Source: Acidobacteriaceae bacterium (GTDB lineage: Bacteria; Acidobacteriota; Terriglobia; Terriglobales; Acidobacteriaceae). From it: 42,670 bases of DNA. Numbering within the stretch: the first letter of the stretch is position 1; every line of letters starts with the position of its first letter. Shown piece by piece: positions 377-15,019 of this stretch. The notes below the pieces were generated by a model. The model had not been told where the DNA came from. It ran no database searches and worked only from the letters and a program-made list of their open reading frames with translations. The position numbers were made by a program, and so were the translations under genes. Location: assembly GCA_025355505.1 (NCBI GenBank), contig JANXZM010000073.1, positions 1 through 42,670 on the forward strand, in the 5' to 3' direction.

Positions 377-1234
377 GTGCACTACTCCATTCGAACCAAG
401 GTGTTGATGTTTTCTATTCTAGCGACCGGCATGTTCCTCTCACGGAATGCGAACGCTCAGGAGCAAAAGATTTCGGTGGGCGATTTGCTCAAGCGTGCGC
501 AGACTGCTGTTTCCCGTGGGACAACGATCAACGATGTTGTCGTGTCGGGTACCGTGCGCCGCATTGCGGGATCTACAGATGAAACCGGTCAGGGCGAGTT
601 CAAAGCACTTGCCAGTGGAGAGGCCAGCATCGACCTTGTATTTGCGTCGGGGTCAAACCGGGAGGTATACGCTCGCGGCCAGCGCGGGCCAGTAGGCGAG
701 TGGAGCGGGATGGATGGGAAGGTGCACGCGATCGCGTATCACAACTTACTGGTAGATGCGGCATGGTTTTCTCCAGTGCTGTTGCTGGAGAGGGCGAGCG
801 CGGCTGCCGAGGGAAAAATCGTAATGGTGGCTGAAGGCAAGAACTCTAGCGGCCATCCACTGGACCATCTGCGAGTGGCTTCCCCATCGCCAATAGCGGC
901 GAGCCACGCGGCCCCCGGTTTGCCTAAGGCCGTCGTTGAGGCCGTGCAAAAGGCAGGCCAATTTGATTTGTACCTGGACTCAGCCACATCTTTGCCGGTT
1001 GAGATGGATTTCCAAACACATCCGGATATCAACCTGGGACAGGATATTCCAGTCCGCGTTCGGTACTCGGACTACCGGACTGTCAACGGTGCATCCTTTC
1101 CCTTCCATGTGCAGAAGTTCATCAACAACACCCTGTATCTCGACCTGCATTTCGATGCTGTCAGTTTCAATAACGGTCTTGCCGCTAATTCCTTTGTAGT
1201 GACTGCGCAACCCTCAAGGAGCCTGCCCCAATGA
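377..1234 (+). CDS. Exported hypothetical protein, first gene of an RHS cassette
   Basis: A 285-residue protein that I cannot assign to a named family. The GTG start at 377 is preferred because TAAGGAGGG (364-372) sits 5 nt upstream and the product then opens with a signal peptide: basic N-terminus, hydrophobic stretch, and NANAQ cleavage site near residue 28. An in-frame codon at 188 lacks a ribosome site and adds no signal-like sequence. The mature part is rich in alternating beta-type segments, and its C-terminal third (RYSDYR...FPFHVQKF...LYLDLHF) resembles LolA-type or outer-membrane-lipoprotein-sorting folds. That resemblance is an impression, not a domain hit. The stop overlaps the start of the RHS gene by 4 bp (ATGA), so the two are probably translationally coupled. 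A role in exporting or folding the RHS protein is inference. Confidence 0.75.
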   Translation: MHYSIRTKVLMFSILATGMFLSRNANAQEQKISVGDLLKRAQTAVSRGTTINDVVVSGTVRRIAGSTDETGQGEFKALASGEASIDLVFASGSNREVYARGQRGPVGEWSGMDGKVHAIAYHNLLVDAAWFSPVLLLERASAAAEGKIVMVAEGKNSSGHPLDHLRVASPSPIAASHAAPGLPKAVVEAVQKAGQFDLYLDSATSLPVEMDFQTHPDINLGQDIPVRVRYSDYRTVNGASFPFHVQKFINNTLYLDLHFDAVSFNNGLAANSFVVTAQPSRSLPQ

Positions 1235-4200
1235 CGCACACACGATGCCAGTCATCGTTTGTTCTGAGTCTTGTTTTCTTAGTCTCTTCGGCAGTGGCGC
1301 AGGTGACGACCGGAACGCCACCGTTTAGTTCGCTGGAGGGCGGCCCAGACGCAGTGAATCTCGGAAATCTCAATGTGCATATGGCTTATCCGGTGCTCCA
1401 TAAGGCGGGGCGCGGATTGCCGCTGAGTTTCGACCTGACTAGCGATACATCGTTTTGGTATCCGCTGACGCTAAGTGGCGGGTCCGTCGTTTGGAATCCT
1501 GTGACTACCGGCGGTTGGAGTGGCTCCCCACAAGGCGTCGGAAACCTAGGTTACGCTTATACAACGGATGGTGCGACGTTCATCTCTTACAGCTTTTTCA
1601 CATACTACGATAGCGCCGGTACGGCGCATCCCTTCAACGGAACGGCCGCCTGGTACGAATGTGGCGTGTGGGTGCCGTGCGGGGATTTTCCGCTGATAAA
1701 TAGCGTTACCACCGACGGCTCGGGGTACACTATAAATGCTGATGCCTGTTACGTGGTTAATAATGCATGCGACTTATTAGTTAGCATGACCGCAGCGGAC
1801 GGTAGTAGCATCGTTCCTCAAAATGGAATCCCTCTGAATCCAACGGTTACGGCCGGGAGCATTATTGACCGCAATGGAAACGAAATCACCACTGACAGTT
1901 CTGGTAGCGTAACTGATACGTTGGGCTTGCAAAATGGGCTTAAGACACTGCGCGTGACGGGTGGAAACCCGAATCCATACGTGCTGGCTTATACGAGCCC
2001 AGCAGGCTCCGATGCGGATGTGAAGGCAACCTTCAAGTCTTACCAAGTCAGGACGAATTTCGGCTGCCCTAGCATCGGCGAGTACGGGGGGACCGGTGGT
2101 CTGTCTGGTAGCCTGGTAGACAGAATCACGCTACCAGACGGGACGTTCTACCAATTCACCTATGAAACGACGCCTGGCGATACGCATAATCCACACAATG
2201 TCACCGCCCGCCTTGCTTCGGTGACGTTGCCCACTGGCGGCGTCATCTCATACGACTACTCCGCGGGAAGTCACAACGGAATTGAGTGCACGGACGGCAG
2301 TACCTCCGGGCTGAAGCGTACAACTCCAGATTCGGCGACTCCTTGGACCTATACCCGCGCACTGGGTACGGGAGCTGCCTCGACCACCACGGTGGTTGAT
2401 CCTAAGGGCAACAACACAGTAATTCAGTTCCAGGGAATCTACGAAACGCAACGGCAGACCTATCAGGGGGCGATTGCGCCAGCCAACCTGCTCCAAGCTA
2501 CTAACACCTGTTACAACGGAGCAGCTATACCCTGTACGGCGACGGCCATCACTCTGCCGGTTTTGAGTAGAACCGTTCAGACACAGCTGGGACCGACTAC
2601 AGCAGAGGTCTTCAAAAAAAATGTGTTCACTTACAATCCGTACGGGTTGGAAACTGAAGAGGACGACTACGACTGGGGACCAACTACGCCTGGAGCATTG
2701 TTGAAAAAGTCGACTGTCAACTACGCTACGAGTCTGGGTGCCATCCAAAACCTGCCGGCGACTGTGACTGTCACGGATGGCACGACTACTTATGCGCAGG
2801 CGACGATGACCTACGACGAGGCGGGAACCCTGACGACCACCACGGGTACGCCTCAACATGTGACGTTCACTGGCTCCCGCGGCAACCTGACGACGCTCGC
2901 AGTCAGCGCAAATGCCAGTACGACTCTCTATCGAAAATTCACCTACTACGATACAGGGAACCCTAATACTTCAAGCGCTGTTAGCACGGTTGGCACCGTG
3001 GCCGGAGAGGGGGCGACCACGACCTACAATTACGCCGCCGGCACGGCTTCATGTGGCAACTCGTTCGCTACATCGGTGACCGAACCGCTGAGCCTGTCGC
3101 GGTTCATGACATGGAATTGCACTGGCGGCGTACAGCTCACAGCGACCGATGAAAATGGGAATATAACCAGCTCGACGTATACGGATCCGAACTTCTGGCG
3201 GCCGTCAACCACTACGGACGCCGCCCAAGTACCGACATCGCTTACCTACACAGGCGCGAACACGGGCGAGAGTTCGCTAGTGTTCAACAACAACGCTTCC
3301 ACGGTCGATCTGCTCACTACGCTTGACGGATTGGGTCGGTCGCACATTTCACAGATCAAACAGTCGCCTGGCGCAGCGAGCTACGATTCCAGAGAAATAG
3401 ACTACGACGCGGTAGGCTTGCCGGAACGAACCACTTTGCCATACTCGGCAGTAGCGGGCGCGGCCAATCCATCGGCACCGGGGACAACGATCACCTACGA
3501 TGCGCTGAACCGACCCGTGCAAAGCACTGACAGCAATGGGGGCACGGTCAGCTCTTCCTACTCAAAGAACGACGTATTGGTGACCCTCGGACCAGCGCCC
3601 ACTGGGGAGAACACGAAACGCCGTCAAATGGAGTATGACGGACTCGGCCGTCTCGCCTCTGTGTGCGAATTGAGTACAACCACCGGTAGCGGTACTTGCG
3701 GGCAAAGAACAACCCAGACCGGCTTTTGGACTAAGTACACGTACGATCCCAACGGCAACATGATCGGCGTGACGCAGAATGCTCAGGCGACCGCGGGCAA
3801 CCAGCAGGCCAGATCCTACGTGTACGATCGGCTCAGCCGCATGACCTTGGAAACGAACCCGGAAAGCGGCACGAAGACATACGGATACGATTTCGATGCA
3901 ACCTGCGGCAGCACAACAGCGCAGGCGGGGGAACTGGTGACGCGAACAGACGCAATGACCCCGCCCAACGTGACCTGCTACAACCACGATGCTCTGCACC
4001 GCAATACCACGATCACATACCCGAGTGGCCCTTATGCAGCAGCCACGCCCAGCAAGACATTCGTCTACGATGCCACCACATTCAGCTGTCCCGGCGGTGT
4101 GGCGAACGTGAAGACACGTCTGGCGGAAGCCTACACAGGCCCAAGCTCTTCCAAGCTCACTGATGTCGCCTATTGCTATACGGCGCGCGGCGAGATTGCG

Positions 4201-6042
4201 AATGTCTTTGAATCTACCCCGCACTCGGCGGGAACCTACAGTGTTCCGATGACGTACTGGGAAAACGGGTTGATGAAAACTTTCGGACCATTCCTGACCG
4301 AAACCCAGGTTAGCATTACCCCGGACGGTGAGGGACGCTCCTTAACTATCAGCGGCGCTGCGAACAACATCACATACAATCATGCCAGCCAACCTACCCA
4401 ACTCATGACCAGTTGCGCTGGGGCGACTTGCTATCCCATCAACTACACCTACGATTTCAACACACTGCGCATGACTCAATACGCCGCCGCGTTGAGCGGC
4501 GGCACAGTTTCGGGAACTTTGACCTGGAACCCGAATGGAAGCCTGAAAAAGTTGGTCGTTGTCGATCCAACAAATGCCGCCGATGCGCAGACTTGCAACT
4601 ACGCCGCTGATGACTTGGGCCGGATTGCCAGCGCCAACTGCGGATCTGTCTGGTCGCAAACATTCAGCTACGATCCCTTCAGCAACGTCTCCAAGAGCGG
4701 GTCACTGAGTTGGCTACCCGGCTACAGCACGAGCACAAATCAATACACGCTCGCAGGAACGAGCTACGATGCTAATGGAAACCTACTGAAAGACAGTTTC
4801 AACACCTACACTTGGGACGCGGAGGGAAAGCCGGTCTCGACTGTCAACTCAGAGACATTAATCTTCGTCTATGACGCATTTGGTCATAAGGTGGAGTGGT
4901 CGGCCGGTACCGGCACTACCTACGAAAATTCGTTTCTGAATATTGGCAAGTGGAAGCTTTCGGCCATTGGCCATACCCCGTACTACTCGGAAACCCCGCT
5001 TCCCGGCGGATCGGTCGCAAGCCAAAACGCTGGGTACACGGGAGTACAACTAGGGGACTGGCTGGGCACGATCCGCGCGCTTTATTCCTATACCGGTGGC
5101 AATGAAGCCGGGAGCTCCGCTCATGCTCCCTTTGGGGAGACGTACGCCACCGGCGGGTATCCGCTCGCCTTCACCGGGCAACGCCCCGACGGTGTCAACG
5201 GCGATACGACATACTACTTCCCGGAGCGGCAGTACCGGGCGAATCAGGGCCGCTGGCTGTCGCCCGACCCGGCAGGGATGGGGGCGGTCGATCCGAGCGA
5301 TCCGCAGACGTGGAATCGGTATGCTTATGTGCGGAACTCACCGCTCAGCCGAGTTGATCCGCTGGGGCTGGACGATGGCGGTTGCAGTCCCGACGATCCC
5401 AGTTGCGGGGGTGGCGACGGTGGCGGTTGGGGTTGTGACTGGGGTTGCGATAGCGGAGGTGGGGGTGGAACGATTACGATTAACTGGGGTCCGAGAGGGG
5501 TTAACGTTGGATTTGCGGGATTCGGCGGCTGCCAAGGAGAGAGCTTAGGGTTGCCGTGTGGGGCCTCGCTCTCCGATCCGAATGCGAATCTTGCGATAGC
5601 TGCGCTCAGAGCCGCTGTCAAGGGAGACTGGAAGAGTGTGCTCGGGCTTTTCGGGAACGCGGGGTGGCAAGAGGCCATGAATATAGCTAATGATCCGATT
5701 TTGGACGGCGCAGGCGACATAGGCACAAATATCTTTAATTGCCCGGATGGCAAGGGCAATGACCCTTGTGCCCGAAGATGGGCGGGTGCAGCTCAAATTA
5801 CCAATCCCTGCACACCCGCTGCATGGTACGTGGCTTCAACTGGCTTGGGCGGATTGGGTGTGGCTGTGGCAAACCAGTCTGCTATCGCGGCCGCTGCTTC
5901 AGAACAGTACCCGTTGTTGATCCACCGGATCTTGACTTGGCTGACTGGTTGGCGAGGACCGAACCCACGGGGATTCATTGGCGGCGGAATCGCGGCTATC
6001 CAAGCGATCCCCGCCGTTTGCTCCAGTCTGGGAAGTCAATAA
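1231..6042 (+). CDS. Exported RHS-repeat protein with variable C-terminal domain
   Basis: A 1603-residue protein with a Sec signal peptide (cleavage near AVAQ, residue 24). The body carries many YD/RHS-type repeats, for example TYDALNRPVQSTD, EYDGLGRLASV and YTYDPNGNMIGV, which in this superfamily build a large beta-shell. Near residues 1295-1380 is the RHS core-associated region with FTGQRPD, YYFPERQY, GRWLSPDP, NRYAYVRNSPLSRVDPLGLD. After residue 1381 comes a family-unlike tail of about 220 residues: first a Gly/Cys-rich linker (CGGGDGGG, CDWGCD), then a mostly helical-looking domain. In RHS/YD proteins the segment after DPxGL is typically the polymorphic, often toxic, tip, but I recognise no catalytic motif here. 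There is no VgrG/PAAR partner, so a Sec-exported surface protein is likelier than a type VI effector. It overlaps the upstream gene by 4 bp, and a small membrane protein starts 14 nt downstream. Confidence 0.92.
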   Translation: MTHTRCQSSFVLSLVFLVSSAVAQVTTGTPPFSSLEGGPDAVNLGNLNVHMAYPVLHKAGRGLPLSFDLTSDTSFWYPLTLSGGSVVWNPVTTGGWSGSPQGVGNLGYAYTTDGATFISYSFFTYYDSAGTAHPFNGTAAWYECGVWVPCGDFPLINSVTTDGSGYTINADACYVVNNACDLLVSMTAADGSSIVPQNGIPLNPTVTAGSIIDRNGNEITTDSSGSVTDTLGLQNGLKTLRVTGGNPNPYVLAYTSPAGSDADVKATFKSYQVRTNFGCPSIGEYGGTGGLSGSLVDRITLPDGTFYQFTYETTPGDTHNPHNVTARLASVTLPTGGVISYDYSAGSHNGIECTDGSTSGLKRTTPDSATPWTYTRALGTGAASTTTVVDPKGNNTVIQFQGIYETQRQTYQGAIAPANLLQATNTCYNGAAIPCTATAITLPVLSRTVQTQLGPTTAEVFKKNVFTYNPYGLETEEDDYDWGPTTPGALLKKSTVNYATSLGAIQNLPATVTVTDGTTTYAQATMTYDEAGTLTTTTGTPQHVTFTGSRGNLTTLAVSANASTTLYRKFTYYDTGNPNTSSAVSTVGTVAGEGATTTYNYAAGTASCGNSFATSVTEPLSLSRFMTWNCTGGVQLTATDENGNITSSTYTDPNFWRPSTTTDAAQVPTSLTYTGANTGESSLVFNNNASTVDLLTTLDGLGRSHISQIKQSPGAASYDSREIDYDAVGLPERTTLPYSAVAGAANPSAPGTTITYDALNRPVQSTDSNGGTVSSSYSKNDVLVTLGPAPTGENTKRRQMEYDGLGRLASVCELSTTTGSGTCGQRTTQTGFWTKYTYDPNGNMIGVTQNAQATAGNQQARSYVYDRLSRMTLETNPESGTKTYGYDFDATCGSTTAQAGELVTRTDAMTPPNVTCYNHDALHRNTTITYPSGPYAAATPSKTFVYDATTFSCPGGVANVKTRLAEAYTGPSSSKLTDVAYCYTARGEIANVFESTPHSAGTYSVPMTYWENGLMKTFGPFLTETQVSITPDGEGRSLTISGAANNITYNHASQPTQLMTSCAGATCYPINYTYDFNTLRMTQYAAALSGGTVSGTLTWNPNGSLKKLVVVDPTNAADAQTCNYAADDLGRIASANCGSVWSQTFSYDPFSNVSKSGSLSWLPGYSTSTNQYTLAGTSYDANGNLLKDSFNTYTWDAEGKPVSTVNSETLIFVYDAFGHKVEWSAGTGTTYENSFLNIGKWKLSAIGHTPYYSETPLPGGSVASQNAGYTGVQLGDWLGTIRALYSYTGGNEAGSSAHAPFGETYATGGYPLAFTGQRPDGVNGDTTYYFPERQYRANQGRWLSPDPAGMGAVDPSDPQTWNRYAYVRNSPLSRVDPLGLDDGGCSPDDPSCGGGDGGGWGCDWGCDSGGGGGTITINWGPRGVNVGFAGFGGCQGESLGLPCGASLSDPNANLAIAALRAAVKGDWKSVLGLFGNAGWQEAMNIANDPILDGAGDIGTNIFNCPDGKGNDPCARRWAGAAQITNPCTPAAWYVASTGLGGLGVAVANQSAIAAAASEQYPLLIHRILTWLTGWRGPNPRGFIGGGIAAIQAIPAVCSSLGSQ

Positions 6043-9047: not shown

Positions 9048-11888
9048 CTAGTAAGTACTGGCACCTGCAAGGCCTTCAAATCTCCGTTGGGTATCCGACG
9101 ACCAACCCGGGATGAGTTGCTCGACCCGGCCGTTTTTGTCGATTACCAAGGACAACGGAACAGTCACTTCATCCGTTGCAAACAGATGGCTGATCGCTGA
9201 CACGCCACCAACGTAGATCGGATAATTGACCGGTGTTTTCTTAAGGAACTGCTGGACGCTGCCATCGGGTTCGGCATCGACGTTGAGCCCGATCAGATCG
9301 ACACCGTTTTTCTCCAGAGCGGCGCGAAGTCGGTTCAATTCCGGCATTTCCTTCTGGCAGGGCGCGCACCATGTGGCCCACAAGTTGATTACGGTCCGGC
9401 GACCTGGCCGGAGTATGGATTGCAAGCTGGAGCCTTTTCCTGAAATCGACTGCACCTGGATCGAGGGGAATTTTTCTCCTACTTTGAACTTCAAGCCTCT
9501 TGCCAGAGCCTGTGCCTTCGTAAGCGGGTCGGGCAGCTTCGTCTTTGCCAGCTCTATCGGTTGCGCTTTTCCCGTTCCGTAGCGCAGCAACAGCGTGATG
9601 CCGGTTCGCGCATCGGCGGAGAAGGCCTCGACTCGGCCGTTTGGCCAGGTGACTTCGATGCTCTGCGCTGCGGGGTCCTGACCAAGTCCAAACAGAAGCC
9701 GGGGATCGCTTTGCGAGAGGAAGCCGGAGCCTCCCGCTTTAACTTTGGTCAGCGTGCCGGCGGAGGTCTTCACCCGCACAACGGCACCGTAGGCGTCACG
9801 ACCCGTCTCCTTACCACCTTCCAGAATGATGCGCAGCCAGTGATTGTCCTGGCCGACATTGTTGCGGAACAGGAGGTGCCCCGGACCCTGGATGGTGGTC
9901 AAAAACACATCCTCGTCCCCGTCGTTGTCGAAATCGGCGAACACCGCGGCGCGCCCATCCGTGATCGAATCGATTCCAGAGACGCCGGAAATGTCCGTGA
10001 ATTTCTTGCCTTCACAATTCAGAAACAGAGCGTCGCGCTCATATCCGCTAAAGGAAAAGCCCTGACTGAAGATCAGACGGTTCTGGTCATTGCGAAGCGT
10101 CCCGGTTTCTTTCTGCGTGTTGTTCTGCGTCACGACCTGACGCCAGAACTGGCTTCAAGTATCTTTCATGGACTTGCCAGAGATGAAGCCGTTGGGCGTA
10201 TAGAGGTCGCTCCATCCATCGTTGTCGAAATCGATGAAGCCGCCGCCCCAGGCCCACCCCGCCGAAAGTCCGCCCACATCGGCGGTCACGTCCTTGTACT
10301 GGCCGTTTCCCAGATTCTGGTAAAGGCTGTTGCCGGCTGCCAGTTTCTTCAGCACGTTCTCCTTCACCGAGGACTTCGGGAACAGGCGCGTCAGAATCCG
10401 GTTCCCCGCGGTGGACGACATGTTGGTGACGTGGAGATCGAGCAGCCCATCATTATTGAAGTCGCCGAAGGATACTCCCATGCCATTGCCGGGGTCGAGA
10501 ACTCCGCGCTGGGCCGCTTCATCTTCGAAGTGATCGCCTTTATTGATGAATAGCGCTTTCTCGCCGAAGTCATTTACGACATAGAGATCGAGCTTGCCAT
10601 CGCCGTTGACGTCGACGAACTCCGCCGCGTAACTCCAGCGGCGGTCGTCCACACCCCACTTATGTGCTTCCTCTTTGAAGGTGCCGTCGCCCTGATTGAT
10701 AAAAAGTAGGTTGGCCGTGCCGTTGGTCGCGTTGAACCACGAGTTCGGCACAACCTTCCCGTAGTAGTTGTAACTCGTCACATATACGTCGGGCAGGCCG
10801 TCGCCATTGACATCCCCGACGGCTGCGCTGAAACCGATGGCGTCGCGCGACACATGGGCTTCGTCAGAGACATCTTTAAAGAACACCTTTCCGTCTTCTC
10901 TAAAGCGGTTCTGCAAAAGCATTTGAGGACCGACGCTGGTGAGAAAGACGTCCGCATCGCCGTCGTTGTCATAGTCGAATGCGACCACGCCGACGCACGG
11001 CGGAACGAACTCGAGACCTGCCTCCTTCGACGCGTCGCGAAAGTGGCCGTGGCCATCGTTCAGGTAGAGGTAGTTGTGGTCAATGCCGCAGACAAACAGG
11101 TCGATCCATCCGTCATGATTAAAGTCAGCCGCCGCCGCGCCGCGGTAAGTGAAACTGTCATTTCCCGCCGATCCGAAAGCCGGCACAGCCACCGCCACGC
11201 CCGCCGCCTCCGAGACTTCAGAAAAAATGTCCGTCGTAGCCATGAGCGAATCGAAGCTGGTCAGCTTGAACGACTGAAATTGCCAGTGCTTGTTGCTGGC
11301 GTAAAGGAGATCGGCTTCGACTACGCCGCGAGCCCATTCCCGGCGATTCTCGCGATCGCGTCCAATAACGAAGAAGGCCACACGAGCGTGCCCCGACGCC
11401 CAGAGCACGGCGGTCGGCACTTCGGCCCCGACGATCGCCTGCGCGGAATCGTCAAAGTTGGCCACCTTTACTTTAAAGCGAGCATCTTCCACTTCGCTGA
11501 AGTGATCCAGAAACGCGGACCAGCCGCCGAGAAAATCCGCAGCCTTGATTCTTCCCGTCTTACCCGAGGAGAAGGCGCTGGCCGGTTTTGCTCTCCAACC
11601 GTGCGAGACGATCCATTTGACCTCGGGCTTGGTATCCGTGGGCTCGGATGGAAACATGTCGGCCACCAACTCTTCCGGAAAGAATTGCGCCGTCTTCTCA
11701 AGATCGCGATTTTTAGTGGCTACCGACAGTTCGAGCAGATCGTTGGCGAGTGACTCCGAGAGTTCTTCTGAGATCTCGAGGCGACGAGCATCGACCGCTG
11801 GCGCGCTTGCCTGCGCAACAGCCTTGCCGCCCGCCAGCGCGATACTTAGCAACAATACAAAGAGACAAAGGGAGTGGCTTTTTTTCAT
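9048..11888 (-). CDS. Exported FG-GAP/ASPIC-UnbV/TlpA protein with in-frame UGA (probable selenoprotein)
   Basis: Read as one gene, this encodes 946 residues if the TGA at 10155-10157 is decoded as selenocysteine (residue 578). The chosen ATG at 11888 gives a clear signal peptide (MKKSHS..., cleavage at AVAQA). An upstream frame to 12080 lacks a signal or a good ribosome site. Residues about 140-270 are an alpha+beta region. From about 310 there are at least seven FG-GAP/VCBS calcium-loop motifs such as DFNHDGWID, DYDNDGDAD, DVNGDGKLD and DFDNDGWSD. The frame then reads GKSMKDT-TGA-SQFWRQVV and continues unbroken through another FG-GAP motif (DFDNDGDED), an ASPIC/UnbV domain (NHWLRIIL...GAVVRVK...VTWPNGRVEAF) and a C-terminal TlpA/thioredoxin domain with WCAPC (Cys841, Cys844). 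Both halves lie in the same frame. The domain order is interrupted only at that codon, and a SECIS-like hairpin follows it. The alternative is a nonsense mutation giving a 577-residue product plus an orphan 3' half. Confidence 0.8.
10122..10149 (-). promoter_or_regulatory. Putative bacterial SECIS element
   Basis: The hairpin begins 6 nt after the TGA at 10157-10155 on the minus strand. The upper stem is 6 bp (GCGTCA/TGACGC) closed by the 5-nt loop GGTCG. Below it, after one bulged G, is a 5-bp lower stem (GTTCT/AGAAC). The first loop G lies 18 nt after the TGA. From established knowledge, bacterial SECIS elements lie directly downstream of the UGA inside the coding region, have a short apical loop with G in its first positions, and the E. 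coli fdhF element carries AGGUCU at its tip. The GGTC tip and an unpaired base in the stem match that pattern closely. Assignment is from sequence only. Confidence 0.75.
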
Positions 11889-12260: not shown

Positions 12261-14609
12261 TTACCGCCCATGTCTGCCATCACCGCCGCCACCGTGCGAC
12301 GATCCACCGCCGTGCGGAGCTCCGCCGCTCGGCGCCGAATGGCCACCGCTGTTGCTGGGGGCAGAACGTCCGCCACCGTTATAACTTGGGGCTGGGCGTC
12401 CGCCGCCACCGTTATAACTCGGGGCTGGGCGTCCGCCGCCACCGTTGTAACTTGGGGCTGGGCGTCCGCCGCCATCGTTGTAACTGCCGCGATTGCCACC
12501 ATAAGAGCCGCCGTTGTAAGAACCTCCGCCGGACGAGCGTGGAGTGACAATGGGCTGCCTCATGTTGAGTGGCGGACGGGAAGATCCGCTATAGCCACGA
12601 CTCTCTGAACTGTATCCGCGGCTCACGGGACCCGAGTTACGGGAAGGGGAGCCATACGAACTGCGGTCTTCGCTGCGCCCCATCCGCTCAGGCATGGCTG
12701 GCCCGGAAGATGGGCGCGCGGGCATCGGCGTAAATTGCTGCCAACCACCACGGTTGTTATTGCCACTCTCGCGAACGGGCGTCGAGCCAACCGAGTTGCC
12801 GGCTCTGGACGCCGAACCCCAATTCGAATTGCCTCGCGTTTCCGGACGTGACTGAGCATGGTTCGCTGCAACAGCGGAGCGTGATTGTCCGACGTTGTTC
12901 GTCCCCGATTGGCCGAACCGCCGGAACCCGTTGTTTGAGCCGTTGTTCGAGTTAGTATTCGAACTCCGATTTCCGGGCCTCGAAACTTCGCGGCCGTTTC
13001 CCGCCGACCTGCCATTCTGCCGGTTGAGGTTCGAGATCTGCGATTGTCCTCGCTCCATCGAGCGCGGCGTCGCGTTCGTGCCTCGGGCCGAAAAGAAGTG
13101 CTGGTTCTGTGGCACGTTCCGAGTCGTTGAAGGAGCCGCCGGGCGTCCGCTGGCCGAGAAGCTCTCGCGGCTCGGATTCACGGGCAATCTGCCGGTCGTG
13201 AAATGCGCATTCTTGAACTGCGCGTGACTCATCGGCTGTGCACGCATACGGCCCCTGCCGAACTCACTCCCCGAGACGGTCGTCCCACCGCGGAAATGCC
13301 GATCATGCAGCGCCAGGTTCACGTTCGAAAATCGCGTGCCGCCATGCAGCGGAGAAAAACCGCCACGGCTCCACGCATGGATGTCGGAACGTTCGAAGCG
13401 CTCGCCATTCCGGCCCCACCAGGGATGGAAACGGTCGCACGGTCCCAGGGGAAGCCAGCCGATCGAGCCCCAGCCATCGCCGAATCCAAACCCGAACCCG
13501 AATCCACCGCCGAATCCGAAGAACGAAACATAAGCCGGCGCCCAGATCGGACGATAGTAGGGGTATCCATAGACCGGTCCGGGCCACCAAGCCCACGCAT
13601 TGTCATACTGCATCCAGCGGCCGTAGTGATACGGCGCCCAGCCCCACGAGTCATACGAAACCCAGGTCCAGCCCCAATAAGGCTCATTCACCCAGCGTCC
13701 GTCGCGATACGGCGCCCAGTCGGCTCCCACAGTTGGCCGCCACACTTGACCGTAATCCGGAACTTCCGTCCAGGTGCCGTGCGAGTCGAGATCTTCGGCT
13801 CCCACGTAATAGTCGTTGGTGTGCCGCCGCGATGTCGCGTTGAGAATCACATTGTCGCGATCGGTGTTCCACTGGTCCCAGTCATCGCGGGCCGGTGCTT
13901 CGCCGATCTTGTATTGCGCCTGATCGCCGGCACCCTGCACGGTAATGAACTGGCCCTGCGTCACTCGTGTGCCACCTTGCGGAGTCGTAACTTCTACTTC
14001 GCCTCTACGGACCAGCACTTCGGTGTGATCGTCGGCAGTAACCAGAATTCGAAAGCTGGATTCGCGGCGGCCGGTGCGAATGGCAACGTTGGGCGTATCG
14101 ATTTCGGCGTCCGCATCGCTGTTCTTCAGCACCGTGTAGTTTGCCATGCCGCGTCCAAGTTGAATCTGGATTTGCGAGCGCGTAAGGGTGGTGACGTTGG
14201 CCTGCGAATGCTCAGCCAGGCGCAGCATGTTGGCATAGTCGAGTTGAAGTTCAGTGCGCGCTTTGTCGCCGGTCGAAACCTGGTCACCCGCAAGCACGGG
14301 AGCATTGAGCGCAGCCGCCGACCAACCACCGGAATCGCCACGCTGCGTGGAAACGTCGCCATGAATCAAGCTGACACGCGCGACGCCGTTGGTTTCCGCC
14401 GGCGCGCTCGAAGTCTGGTTCGCTTGGTCGTTGGAGCCTGGTTGCGCCGAGCCCTGGTTCATCGAACCCTGGTCGCTGGGGGCCGGGGCGAGTTGCAAAT
14501 CTTGATCCGGCACCTGGTCGTTCGCGCTCTGCGCGAAGACAGCGCCTGGAATCGCGATCATCAATCCTAGAAGTGCTGCTATTAATTTGAATTTCAATTT
14601 CACGTTCAT
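12261..14609 (-). CDS. FecR-domain, Trp/Tyr-rich exported protein
   Basis: A 782-residue exported protein. The ATG at 14609 has GGAGG about 5 nt upstream and starts a signal peptide (MNVKLKFKL..., cleavage at VFAQ, residue 27). Residues about 76-200 form a FecR-type domain (VSLIHGDVSTQRG...VLAGDQVSTGDKARTELQL). Here it is not next to a sigma factor, so a structural or regulatory role in the envelope is more likely than iron signalling. Residues about 230-370 are a Trp/Tyr-rich segment (WAPYRDGRWV, WGWAPYHYGRW), the pattern of the DUF6600-type region. Then comes a Phe/Gly-rich stretch (FGFGFGFGDGWG) and a long low-complexity Ser/Asn/Gly/Arg tail ending in tandem GGGGRPAPSYN repeats and a His/Gly-rich terminus. 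No enzyme motif is visible. It is probably an envelope or extracellular protein of unknown role, monocistronic, with a strong terminator behind it. Confidence 0.85.
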   Translation of the reverse strand: MNVKLKFKLIAALLGLMIAIPGAVFAQSANDQVPDQDLQLAPAPSDQGSMNQGSAQPGSNDQANQTSSAPAETNGVARVSLIHGDVSTQRGDSGGWSAAALNAPVLAGDQVSTGDKARTELQLDYANMLRLAEHSQANVTTLTRSQIQIQLGRGMANYTVLKNSDADAEIDTPNVAIRTGRRESSFRILVTADDHTEVLVRRGEVEVTTPQGGTRVTQGQFITVQGAGDQAQYKIGEAPARDDWDQWNTDRDNVILNATSRRHTNDYYVGAEDLDSHGTWTEVPDYGQVWRPTVGADWAPYRDGRWVNEPYWGWTWVSYDSWGWAPYHYGRWMQYDNAWAWWPGPVYGYPYYRPIWAPAYVSFFGFGGGFGFGFGFGDGWGSIGWLPLGPCDRFHPWWGRNGERFERSDIHAWSRGGFSPLHGGTRFSNVNLALHDRHFRGGTTVSGSEFGRGRMRAQPMSHAQFKNAHFTTGRLPVNPSRESFSASGRPAAPSTTRNVPQNQHFFSARGTNATPRSMERGQSQISNLNRQNGRSAGNGREVSRPGNRSSNTNSNNGSNNGFRRFGQSGTNNVGQSRSAVAANHAQSRPETRGNSNWGSASRAGNSVGSTPVRESGNNNRGGWQQFTPMPARPSSGPAMPERMGRSEDRSSYGSPSRNSGPVSRGYSSESRGYSGSSRPPLNMRQPIVTPRSSGGGSYNGGSYGGNRGSYNDGGGRPAPSYNGGGGRPAPSYNGGGGRPAPSYNGGGRSAPSNSGGHSAPSGGAPHGGGSSHGGGGDGRHGR
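12367..12480 (-). repeat. 33-bp tandem coding repeat
   Basis: Three near-identical consecutive 33-nt units encode GGGGRPAPSYN in the C-terminal tail of the FecR-domain protein, with degenerate units on either side. They differ at a few third positions (TTATAACTT/TTATAACTC/TTGTAACTT), so they are old enough to have drifted but remain in frame. Copy number could vary by slippage without breaking the frame. Confidence 0.85.
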
Positions 14610-15019
14610 AGATACCTCCACCTTGCTCGGGACAAATCTCTGCCTGAAAGAGTGCAGGCTGAGTGCCAATGCCGGGCGACTTGCGGTAATCGCAATAAAG
14701 TCATTATTTTTAGCAAGTTAACAATGACGTGGCAGGTTGGGAAGGCGGCGATTTGCGAGGCTGCGGTGGCCCAGTTCAACCAGAGTGGTGGTTTTCGGCC
14801 AGAGATCCGATCGCGCCTAGACCACTTATGCAGAAAACTGCCTTTGCCCCCGATGTGGGGCCTGCAATTCAACACCAGCACTTCGCATTCAGGATTTCCA
14901 CGGTGTTCCTCTGTGCCCCCTGTGGTTCCGCCTTTTCTAGTTGACCGAACCGGCACTCTGGAAAACGAGGAGGGCGCCGTAGTTTGCCAGGCGCCCTGAT
15001 TTAAGACCCTTGGCCCTAT
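14610..15019. other. Intergenic region with partial dispersed repeat
   Basis: This holds the upstream region of the minus-strand FecR gene and non-coding sequence before the vapC remnant. An AT-rich patch at about 14692-14722 is the likeliest promoter zone, though no consensus pair is clear. At 14902-14926 is a 25-bp sequence (inverse ACCACAGGGG, then CACAGAGG) that recurs in inverted orientation at 18705-18730, marking it as part of a dispersed repeat family. No intact gene is present, and no antitoxin for the adjacent vapC remnant was found. Confidence 0.5.

Follow-up and report, generated by a model that had tools for sequence, protein, structure and literature searches.

The described proteins closest to the one reported here are CRTAC1, which combines a propeller with a UnbV_ASPIC-like part, and the TlpA/ResA oxidoreductases. 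To our knowledge, no selenocysteine (Sec) is known in CRTAC1.

Prokaryotic selenoproteins are distributed over 119 families and subfamilies in Table 1 of a 2026 paper, by its own count, and a thioredoxin-like fold is found in most of the characterised ones (PMC13188914). The whole of that table has no entry for FG-GAP, VCBS, UnbV, ASPIC or CRTAC1. ASPIC and VCBS are not mentioned in PMC12013277, PMC9312934 and PMC5029168 (word search), and no paper in the open-licence part of PubMed Central, taken without its supplement, combined selenocysteine with UnbV or VCBS. There, the combinations of selenoprotein with FG-GAP and of selenocysteine with CRTAC1 led to other subjects only, by title and abstract. 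In NCBIfam (June 2026) no model of the whole architecture matched the protein; the matches were to the TlpA domain, to other thioredoxin-type models and, over a short stretch, to one FG-GAP-like model.

We describe here a gene located in a 42,670-nucleotide stretch of DNA from an Acidobacteriaceae bacterium (the window), in which Sec would be carried by an FG-GAP propeller with a thioredoxin domain fused to it. The first-pass annotation of the window did not know this family as an established selenoprotein family. Table 1 of PMC13188914 contains no such architecture.

Gene Structure and Domain Organization

Translation of the minus strand from 11888 to 9048, with TGA read as Sec, gave 946 residues with a single U at position 578 and a terminal stop. 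The whole gene (9048-11888, minus strand) is made of 946 codons plus TAG, and its TGA column is invariant in the alignment A1 (25 aligned sequences). Without read-through, two ORFs are present in one frame, at 12080-10155 and 10133-9048 (minus strand). Re-translation confirmed the first-pass observation that the two open stretches are split only by the TGA at 10157-10155, and the chance of a random open stretch of 361 codons after this TGA is about 3e-6 at the G+C content of the window.

The first 26 residues (11811-11888, minus strand, as are all features of the gene) form a hydrophobic, signal-peptide-like N-terminus, read by eye, with a modelled helix at residues 4-18 of low confidence. From its sequence, the 946-residue protein is apparently exported. 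An NTF2-like or ketosteroid-isomerase-like domain follows at residues about 34-224 (11217-11789), recognised with an AlphaFold model and Foldseek; Pfam gave no match for the N-terminal domain (window 11208-11786). The FG-GAP propeller region, with repeated DxDxDG-type motifs, extends over residues about 240-690 (9819-11171; Pfam FG-GAP_3 6.7e-45, and Foldseek). It contains the Sec codon TGA (10155-10157, residue 578) in the motif SGKSMKDT-U-SQFWRQVV, and TGA is also found in the closest homologs. Next come the UnbV_ASPIC domain (residues 699-757, 9618-9794; Pfam 2e-16) and a TlpA/ResA-like thioredoxin domain at residues about 800-931 (9096-9491; Redoxin 4.9e-19; ResA 4nmu). The latter carries the redox motif CAPC at residues 841-844 (9357-9368), both Cys being invariant in A1.

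Pfam confirmed that the FG-GAP, ASPIC/UnbV and CxxC thioredoxin domains are in frame, as first annotated. The FG-GAP repeats and the UnbV_ASPIC domain scored above the curated cut-offs, which assigns the protein to the CRTAC1-like FG-GAP/UnbV family. The C-terminal domain, with AhpC-TSA/Redoxin matches and the motif WATWCAPC, shows the CxxC and the cis-Pro position of TlpA/ResA: C841, C844 and P911 are invariant in A1, and we infer that P911 is the cis-Pro of the thioredoxin domain. Elsewhere in the window, a gene for an 802-residue FecR/DUF6600 protein (12261-14669, minus strand) lies directly upstream of the selenoprotein gene, and a 1603-residue ORF (1231-6042, plus strand) showed a weak RHS_repeat match.

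The AlphaFold2 model of the full protein, made from A1, had a mean pLDDT of 83 and a pTM of 0.83. Sec 578 opens a predicted helix (578-587) that lies within and next to stretches of lower certainty. Murine CRTAC1 was ranked first by Foldseek and ResA/TlpA next; the top match of the propeller region was 9etn, murine CRTAC1, with an E-value of 1.1e-29 and a TM-score of 0.74 by target length. The N-terminal domain, modelled separately (pLDDT 89), had as its best match 3hx8, a putative ketosteroid isomerase (E 2.3e-4), and shows, by predicted structure only, the cone-shaped alpha+beta fold of the NTF2-like superfamily.

The Selenocysteine Column in Homologs

A scan of genome contigs provided 507 relatives, and the best 80 made up the homolog set. 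TGA was present at column 578 in all 28 closest homologs among these best 80 of 507 (L025-L052, with L038, L046, L047 and L052 running off contig ends), at 46-80% identity. The first-pass annotation had named TAA, TAG or a frameshift at this site as signs of a simple nonsense mutation, and none was found at the Sec column of the 28 closest of the best 80 relatives. The 52 more distant homologs of the same best 80 of 507 included three with TGA in a similar motif (L067, L076 and L085) and three with Cys at the Sec column (L080, L093 and L101). L053 had Ala and L100 had Ser at this position, both within an FFWRQ motif, and in most other distant homologs of the set the segment was missing or aligned without the motif. 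The alignment across the TGA suggested by the first-pass annotation, which looked for Cys or UGA, thus returned TGA in 28/28 of the closest homologs (best 80 of 507) and Cys in a distant clade; the UGA column is kept as UGA or Cys across homologs, as in a selenoprotein.

In the 25 sequences of A1, D576, T577, U578, S579, F581, W582 and R583 are invariant, and U578, C841 and C844 are the only invariant Cys or Sec positions. An assembly error was rejected, as independent genomes agree on the TGA. In a separate clade of homologs without Sec, drift has left N, A, G, S, D, E or Q at this column, on sequence comparison a point against a universal need for Sec.

Several particular forms were observed. 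The Cys forms (motif DYCTTFWRHDIYT and similar) are encoded by tandem, partly overlapping genes, three each at L080 and L093 and two at L101; no thioredoxin domain was present in the two L080 genes scanned. A paralog in the window's own genome (G000:C106:46007-48067) and the homologs L106-L120 have Asn, Ala, Gly or Ser in place of Sec, together with a degenerate CxxC, and are apparently derived forms without selenium; L106 has C-terminal TPRs besides the degenerate CxxC in its thioredoxin-like domain. A second recoded stop in L134-L137 was considered and rejected, the extra TAG being the terminal stop in 4/4.

A Covarying Hairpin Downstream of the TGA

The SECIS hairpin is located at 10122-10149 (minus strand), with a stem of 11 base pairs (10149-10138 / 10132-10122), one bulged G (10143) and a GGUCG loop (GGTCG, 10137-10133). 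Pairing starts with the sixth base after the TGA, which matches the SECIS-like hairpin placed 6 nt past the TGA by the first-pass annotation. The fold has an energy of -15.3 kcal/mol over 48 nt (z -2.1), and 5/200 shuffles were as stable. Folding energy by itself is modest evidence; covariation is strong evidence.

In the following, hairpin bases are numbered with the T of the TGA as base 0. Pair and rule counts refer to distinct 33-base stretches; rows that contained N or gaps, or that covered too little of the sequence, were left out, as was L196, where TGA is aligned and the motif is absent. The six pairs from 14-30 to 19-25 were all formed in 36/48 distinct UGA rows, in 1/38 non-UGA rows and in 0/8 Cys homologs. 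The mean folding energy over 36 nt was -12.0 in UGA rows (68 rows), -8.4 in non-UGA rows (38) and -5.0 in Cys rows (8).

Pair 17-27 joins the third base of an Arg codon to the opening base of the codon four places downstream. It was formed in 46 of the 48 distinct UGA rows, compared with a mean of 24.9 and a maximum of 34 in 5000 runs in which synonymous codons were permuted between rows, every protein remaining unchanged. The combinations observed were CGT with Thr ACG, CGC with Ala GCN, CGG or CGA with Ser TCG, and CGG with Pro CCG. Non-UGA homologs formed this pair in 11/38 rows, equal to their own shuffles (mean 10.6). The closing pair of the apical GU alternates between G-C, C-G and A-U, and was paired in 40/48 UGA rows versus 10/38 non-UGA rows. 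The pattern was replicated in Planctomycetota, where 49/53 UGA rows formed pair 17-27 (shuffle mean 25.8, maximum 37) and non-UGA rows showed no excess (9/14, own-shuffle mean 7.6). These shuffle counts are not to be read as probabilities because related rows share ancestry. The Planctomycetota covariation and contrasts were made without L291, L295, L300-L303 and L306, whose motif was unrecognisable (L301, L302, L303 and L306 carry TGA), and without the gap rows L293, L294, L296 and L297.

A figure legend of PMC13188914 gives a rule for bacterial SECIS elements: a loop of 3-9 nt, an upper stem of 4-16 bp, a G in the first two loop positions, a spacing of 16-37 nt and an MFE of -7.5 or lower. 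As scripted here, the rule carried one further condition, a local stem-loop MFE not above -5, and the -7.5 limit was applied over 39 nt. With the rule in this form, 47/48 distinct UGA rows passed, compared with 10/38 non-UGA rows and 0/8 Cys homologs; the spacing was 16-17 in the UGA rows listed. In Planctomycetota 50/53 UGA rows passed, and the rule alone discriminates less there because 7/14 non-UGA rows also pass. The bacterial SECIS search proposed in the first-pass annotation is thereby answered by a hairpin of the described form, which covaries through synonymous changes. A chance hairpin arising from coding constraint was rejected by the synonymous shuffles in both phyla.

Selenocysteine Machinery

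The first-pass annotation proposed a search for selA, selB, selD and the selC tRNA, and all four are present in the window's own genome. The tRNA-Sec (selC) scored 69.7 bits and was confirmed by ARAGORN with anticodon TCA; selB scored 387 bits, selA 540 bits, and selD, matched in two pieces, 360 bits. A single TGA interrupts the selD frame. The SelD selenoprotein motif is UxxK (PMC13188914). In the own-genome SelD (G000:C57:28311-29327, L211) the in-frame TGA lies in the context AGUASK, which fits this motif, and the protein is for this reason probably itself a selenoprotein.

At E 1e-60, selB was found in 256/396 Acidobacteriota genomes: 41 of the 44 UGA carriers versus 215 of the 352 other genomes (Fisher p 7e-6). 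The UGA genomes below the cut-off were G103 (75% complete), G133 (95%) and G289 (72%, with selB in pieces). The genomes of the UGA loci L044, L025 and L085 were above the cut-off, and that of L048 had pieces only. In the own genus, 21/24 genomes were above the cut-off.

Distribution in Acidobacteriota and Planctomycetota

Matches to A1 at E 1e-90 or better were found in 66/396 sampled Acidobacteriota genomes, and a TGA member, by reading of the codon, in 44/396; 27 of these 44 had the window architecture and 17 had another type alone. One such type ends in C-terminal TPRs (L085 and the second gene of L149). Because scoring was limited to the two best candidates of each genome, this survey undercounts gene copies. 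At L149 (G366:C280), TlpA-ending and TPR-ending UGA members are adjacent. A full-length UGA member was found in 1/24 genomes of the own genus among the matches listed, and the distribution of the gene is patchy.

Homologs were found in 86/392 sampled Planctomycetota genomes (E 1e-70). Among the matches listed there, 95 were read, 15 fetched automatically and 80 chosen, including most of those listed without a stop. TGA was present at the Sec column in 74/95; the other 21 had R (5), E (5), N (3), H, D, L or A (1 each) or gaps (4). L301, L302, L303 and L306 have a TGA at or near the Sec column in an unrecognisable surrounding motif; these codons may mark different Sec sites or truly end the proteins.

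Plasmid and viral collections held distant FG-GAP relatives only: one search gave no record covering 80%, and the other gave 14 loci, the best 29% identical. Nothing conserved that points to a substrate was found among the neighbouring genes at 19 loci or in the window. The sole recurring neighbour type at these loci was another FG-GAP protein, and at L040 and L044 a TPR-FG-GAP-UnbV gene (Pfam) adjoins the Sec gene.

Selenocysteine and CxxC Tend to Be Kept or Lost Together

Among the rows of the first set whose thioredoxin domain was aligned, taken without deduplication, both Cys were present in 84/84 UGA rows and in 1/36 others, an association that represents few events because one clade holds nearly all the non-UGA rows. 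A larger tree, to which Planctomycetota had been added, had 199 rows, of which 193 were scored: 132 had Sec or Cys together with CxxC, 48 had neither and 13 were discordant. Twelve discordant rows had Sec or Cys without CxxC (eight Cys rows and the UGA rows L067, L282, L299 and L304), and the remaining one, L159, had CxxC with Asn at the Sec column; it is a possible intermediate of Sec loss. Independent contrasts on well-supported branches agreed in 5/5 cases (sign test p 0.0625). The fused reductase is not universal, as the same four UGA rows and the eight Cys rows are without the CxxC domain.

The CxxC was set by hand to absent in L067, L080, L093, L101, L153, L180, L187 and L193, and in rows whose tail was read. 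The trees left out second copies of the window gene or its paralog (L006, L007, L105, L127 and L184) as well as L054, L195 and L196. For gene ends, only the CxxC motif read-out and tail lengths were used because a TlpA-remnant profile search of these ends gave no match, even where a degenerate thioredoxin-like stretch was visible; L286 was unplaced and unscored in this reading.

The tendency of Sec and CxxC to be kept or lost together suggests that a selenol on the propeller is served by the protein's own thioredoxin domain. The redox pairing of Sec 578 with CAPC, conceivable to the first-pass annotation, is supported, not proven, by this co-retention and co-loss.

Proposed Mechanism and Alternative Explanations

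We propose that the gene encodes one exported selenoprotein with a hairpin-directed Sec at position 578, a redox-active selenol and its own fused CxxC reductase, a reading to which we give a probability of about 85% from comparative data. In this model, SelB and tRNA-Sec would decode UGA 578 as selenocysteine, steered by the downstream hairpin. Sec 578, predicted to begin a helix within an insertion of the CRTAC1-like FG-GAP propeller, would most likely be a redox-active selenol. Candidate substrates are peroxides, disulfides or other oxidised compounds, periplasmic or extracellular. The CxxC in the fused TlpA-like domain may then return the oxidised selenium to its reduced state, and a redox relay from Sec to CxxC is likely on the sequence patterns. 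The net result would be a selenoenzyme with a built-in reductase.

Two alternatives concern the role of Sec. It could be redox active with an external thiol as its resolving partner, which would leave a separate task to the fused TlpA domain; this would suit the UGA members L067, L282, L299 and L304 without the CxxC domain. We consider this unlikely, given that CxxC is present in 132/144 Sec/Cys rows versus 1/49 rows without Sec or Cys. Sec could also be a metal ligand in the propeller, with the TlpA-like domain as its maturation or reductase module and no free catalytic selenol. This proposal finds some analogy in the mixed-disulfide structures of TlpA with the copper chaperone ScoI and cytochrome oxidase subunit II (4txo and 4txv, by title), and in the calcium bound by FG-GAP-type propellers through Dx[DN]xDG motifs, as mentioned in a passage of PMC3123361. 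It is nevertheless doubtful, no conserved His/Cys set being apparent beside Sec, whose invariant neighbours in A1 are D576, T577, S579, F581, W582 and R583.

The other two alternatives concern the TGA itself. A nonsense mutation or real stop, which would make the gene a pseudogene or yield two proteins if translation re-initiated at the GTG at 10133, is highly improbable: the downstream ORF does have a GTG start, but termination would split the propeller region, the protein sequence is conserved straight across the TGA, the hairpin covaries, and the codon is TGA in 28/28 of the closest homologs (best 80 of 507), never TAA or TAG, down to 46% identity. Insertion of a different amino acid, through an altered genetic code or leaky suppression, found no specific support and is hardly credible in view of normal TGA terminal stops in several homologs (e.g., L027, L029, L030 and L035), the covarying SECIS-type hairpin, Cys in a distant clade and the full Sec machinery.

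The selenoprotein reading of the in-frame TGA, already made in the first-pass annotation, is strongly supported by the homologs, the Sec machinery and the covarying hairpin. The comparative case for a genuine selenoprotein is very strong, and we class the protein as a new family built on an unusual fold.

Significance and Comparison with Known Systems

The family is apparently a large, undescribed selenoprotein family present in two common phyla. It is fairly likely that it forms a large, undescribed superfamily of exported propeller selenoenzymes with a fused thioredoxin reductant, and that the selenium-dependent redox activity of these enzymes is widespread in Acidobacteriota and Planctomycetota. 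If this is true, genes of the family, which may be mis-annotated as truncated, are probably recorded as truncated fragments in many genomes, and selenium use in the habitats of both phyla would for that reason be underestimated. The family would also offer a handle on the role of the very numerous FG-GAP/UnbV proteins in both phyla, and the covariation of the Arg codon is a clean natural test of the SECIS constraint on synonymous codons.

The protein shares with bacterial selenoproteins generally the UGA, the SECIS immediately downstream and SelA, SelB, SelC and SelD. The WAxxUGC ResA-like proteins (NF041054) and the UGC-containing TlpA selenoproteins (PMC13188914) are likewise thioredoxin-type proteins with Sec, but their Sec is in the thioredoxin motif, judging by the motif names, whereas that of the window protein is in the propeller region. 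With 35.5 bits against NF041054 (cut-off 300) and the motif CAPC, the window TlpA domain falls outside the WAxxUGC family. The C-terminal domain, with its WATWCAPC, resembles the TlpA/ResA oxidoreductases; in the window protein, however, it is fused to a propeller and the Sec is outside the CxxC motif. The best match in both sequence and fold is murine CRTAC1 (9etn), with its propeller and UnbV_ASPIC-like part, from which the window protein differs by the Sec segment (profile positions about 495-650) and the thioredoxin domain, both of which remained unaligned in the HMMER alignment.
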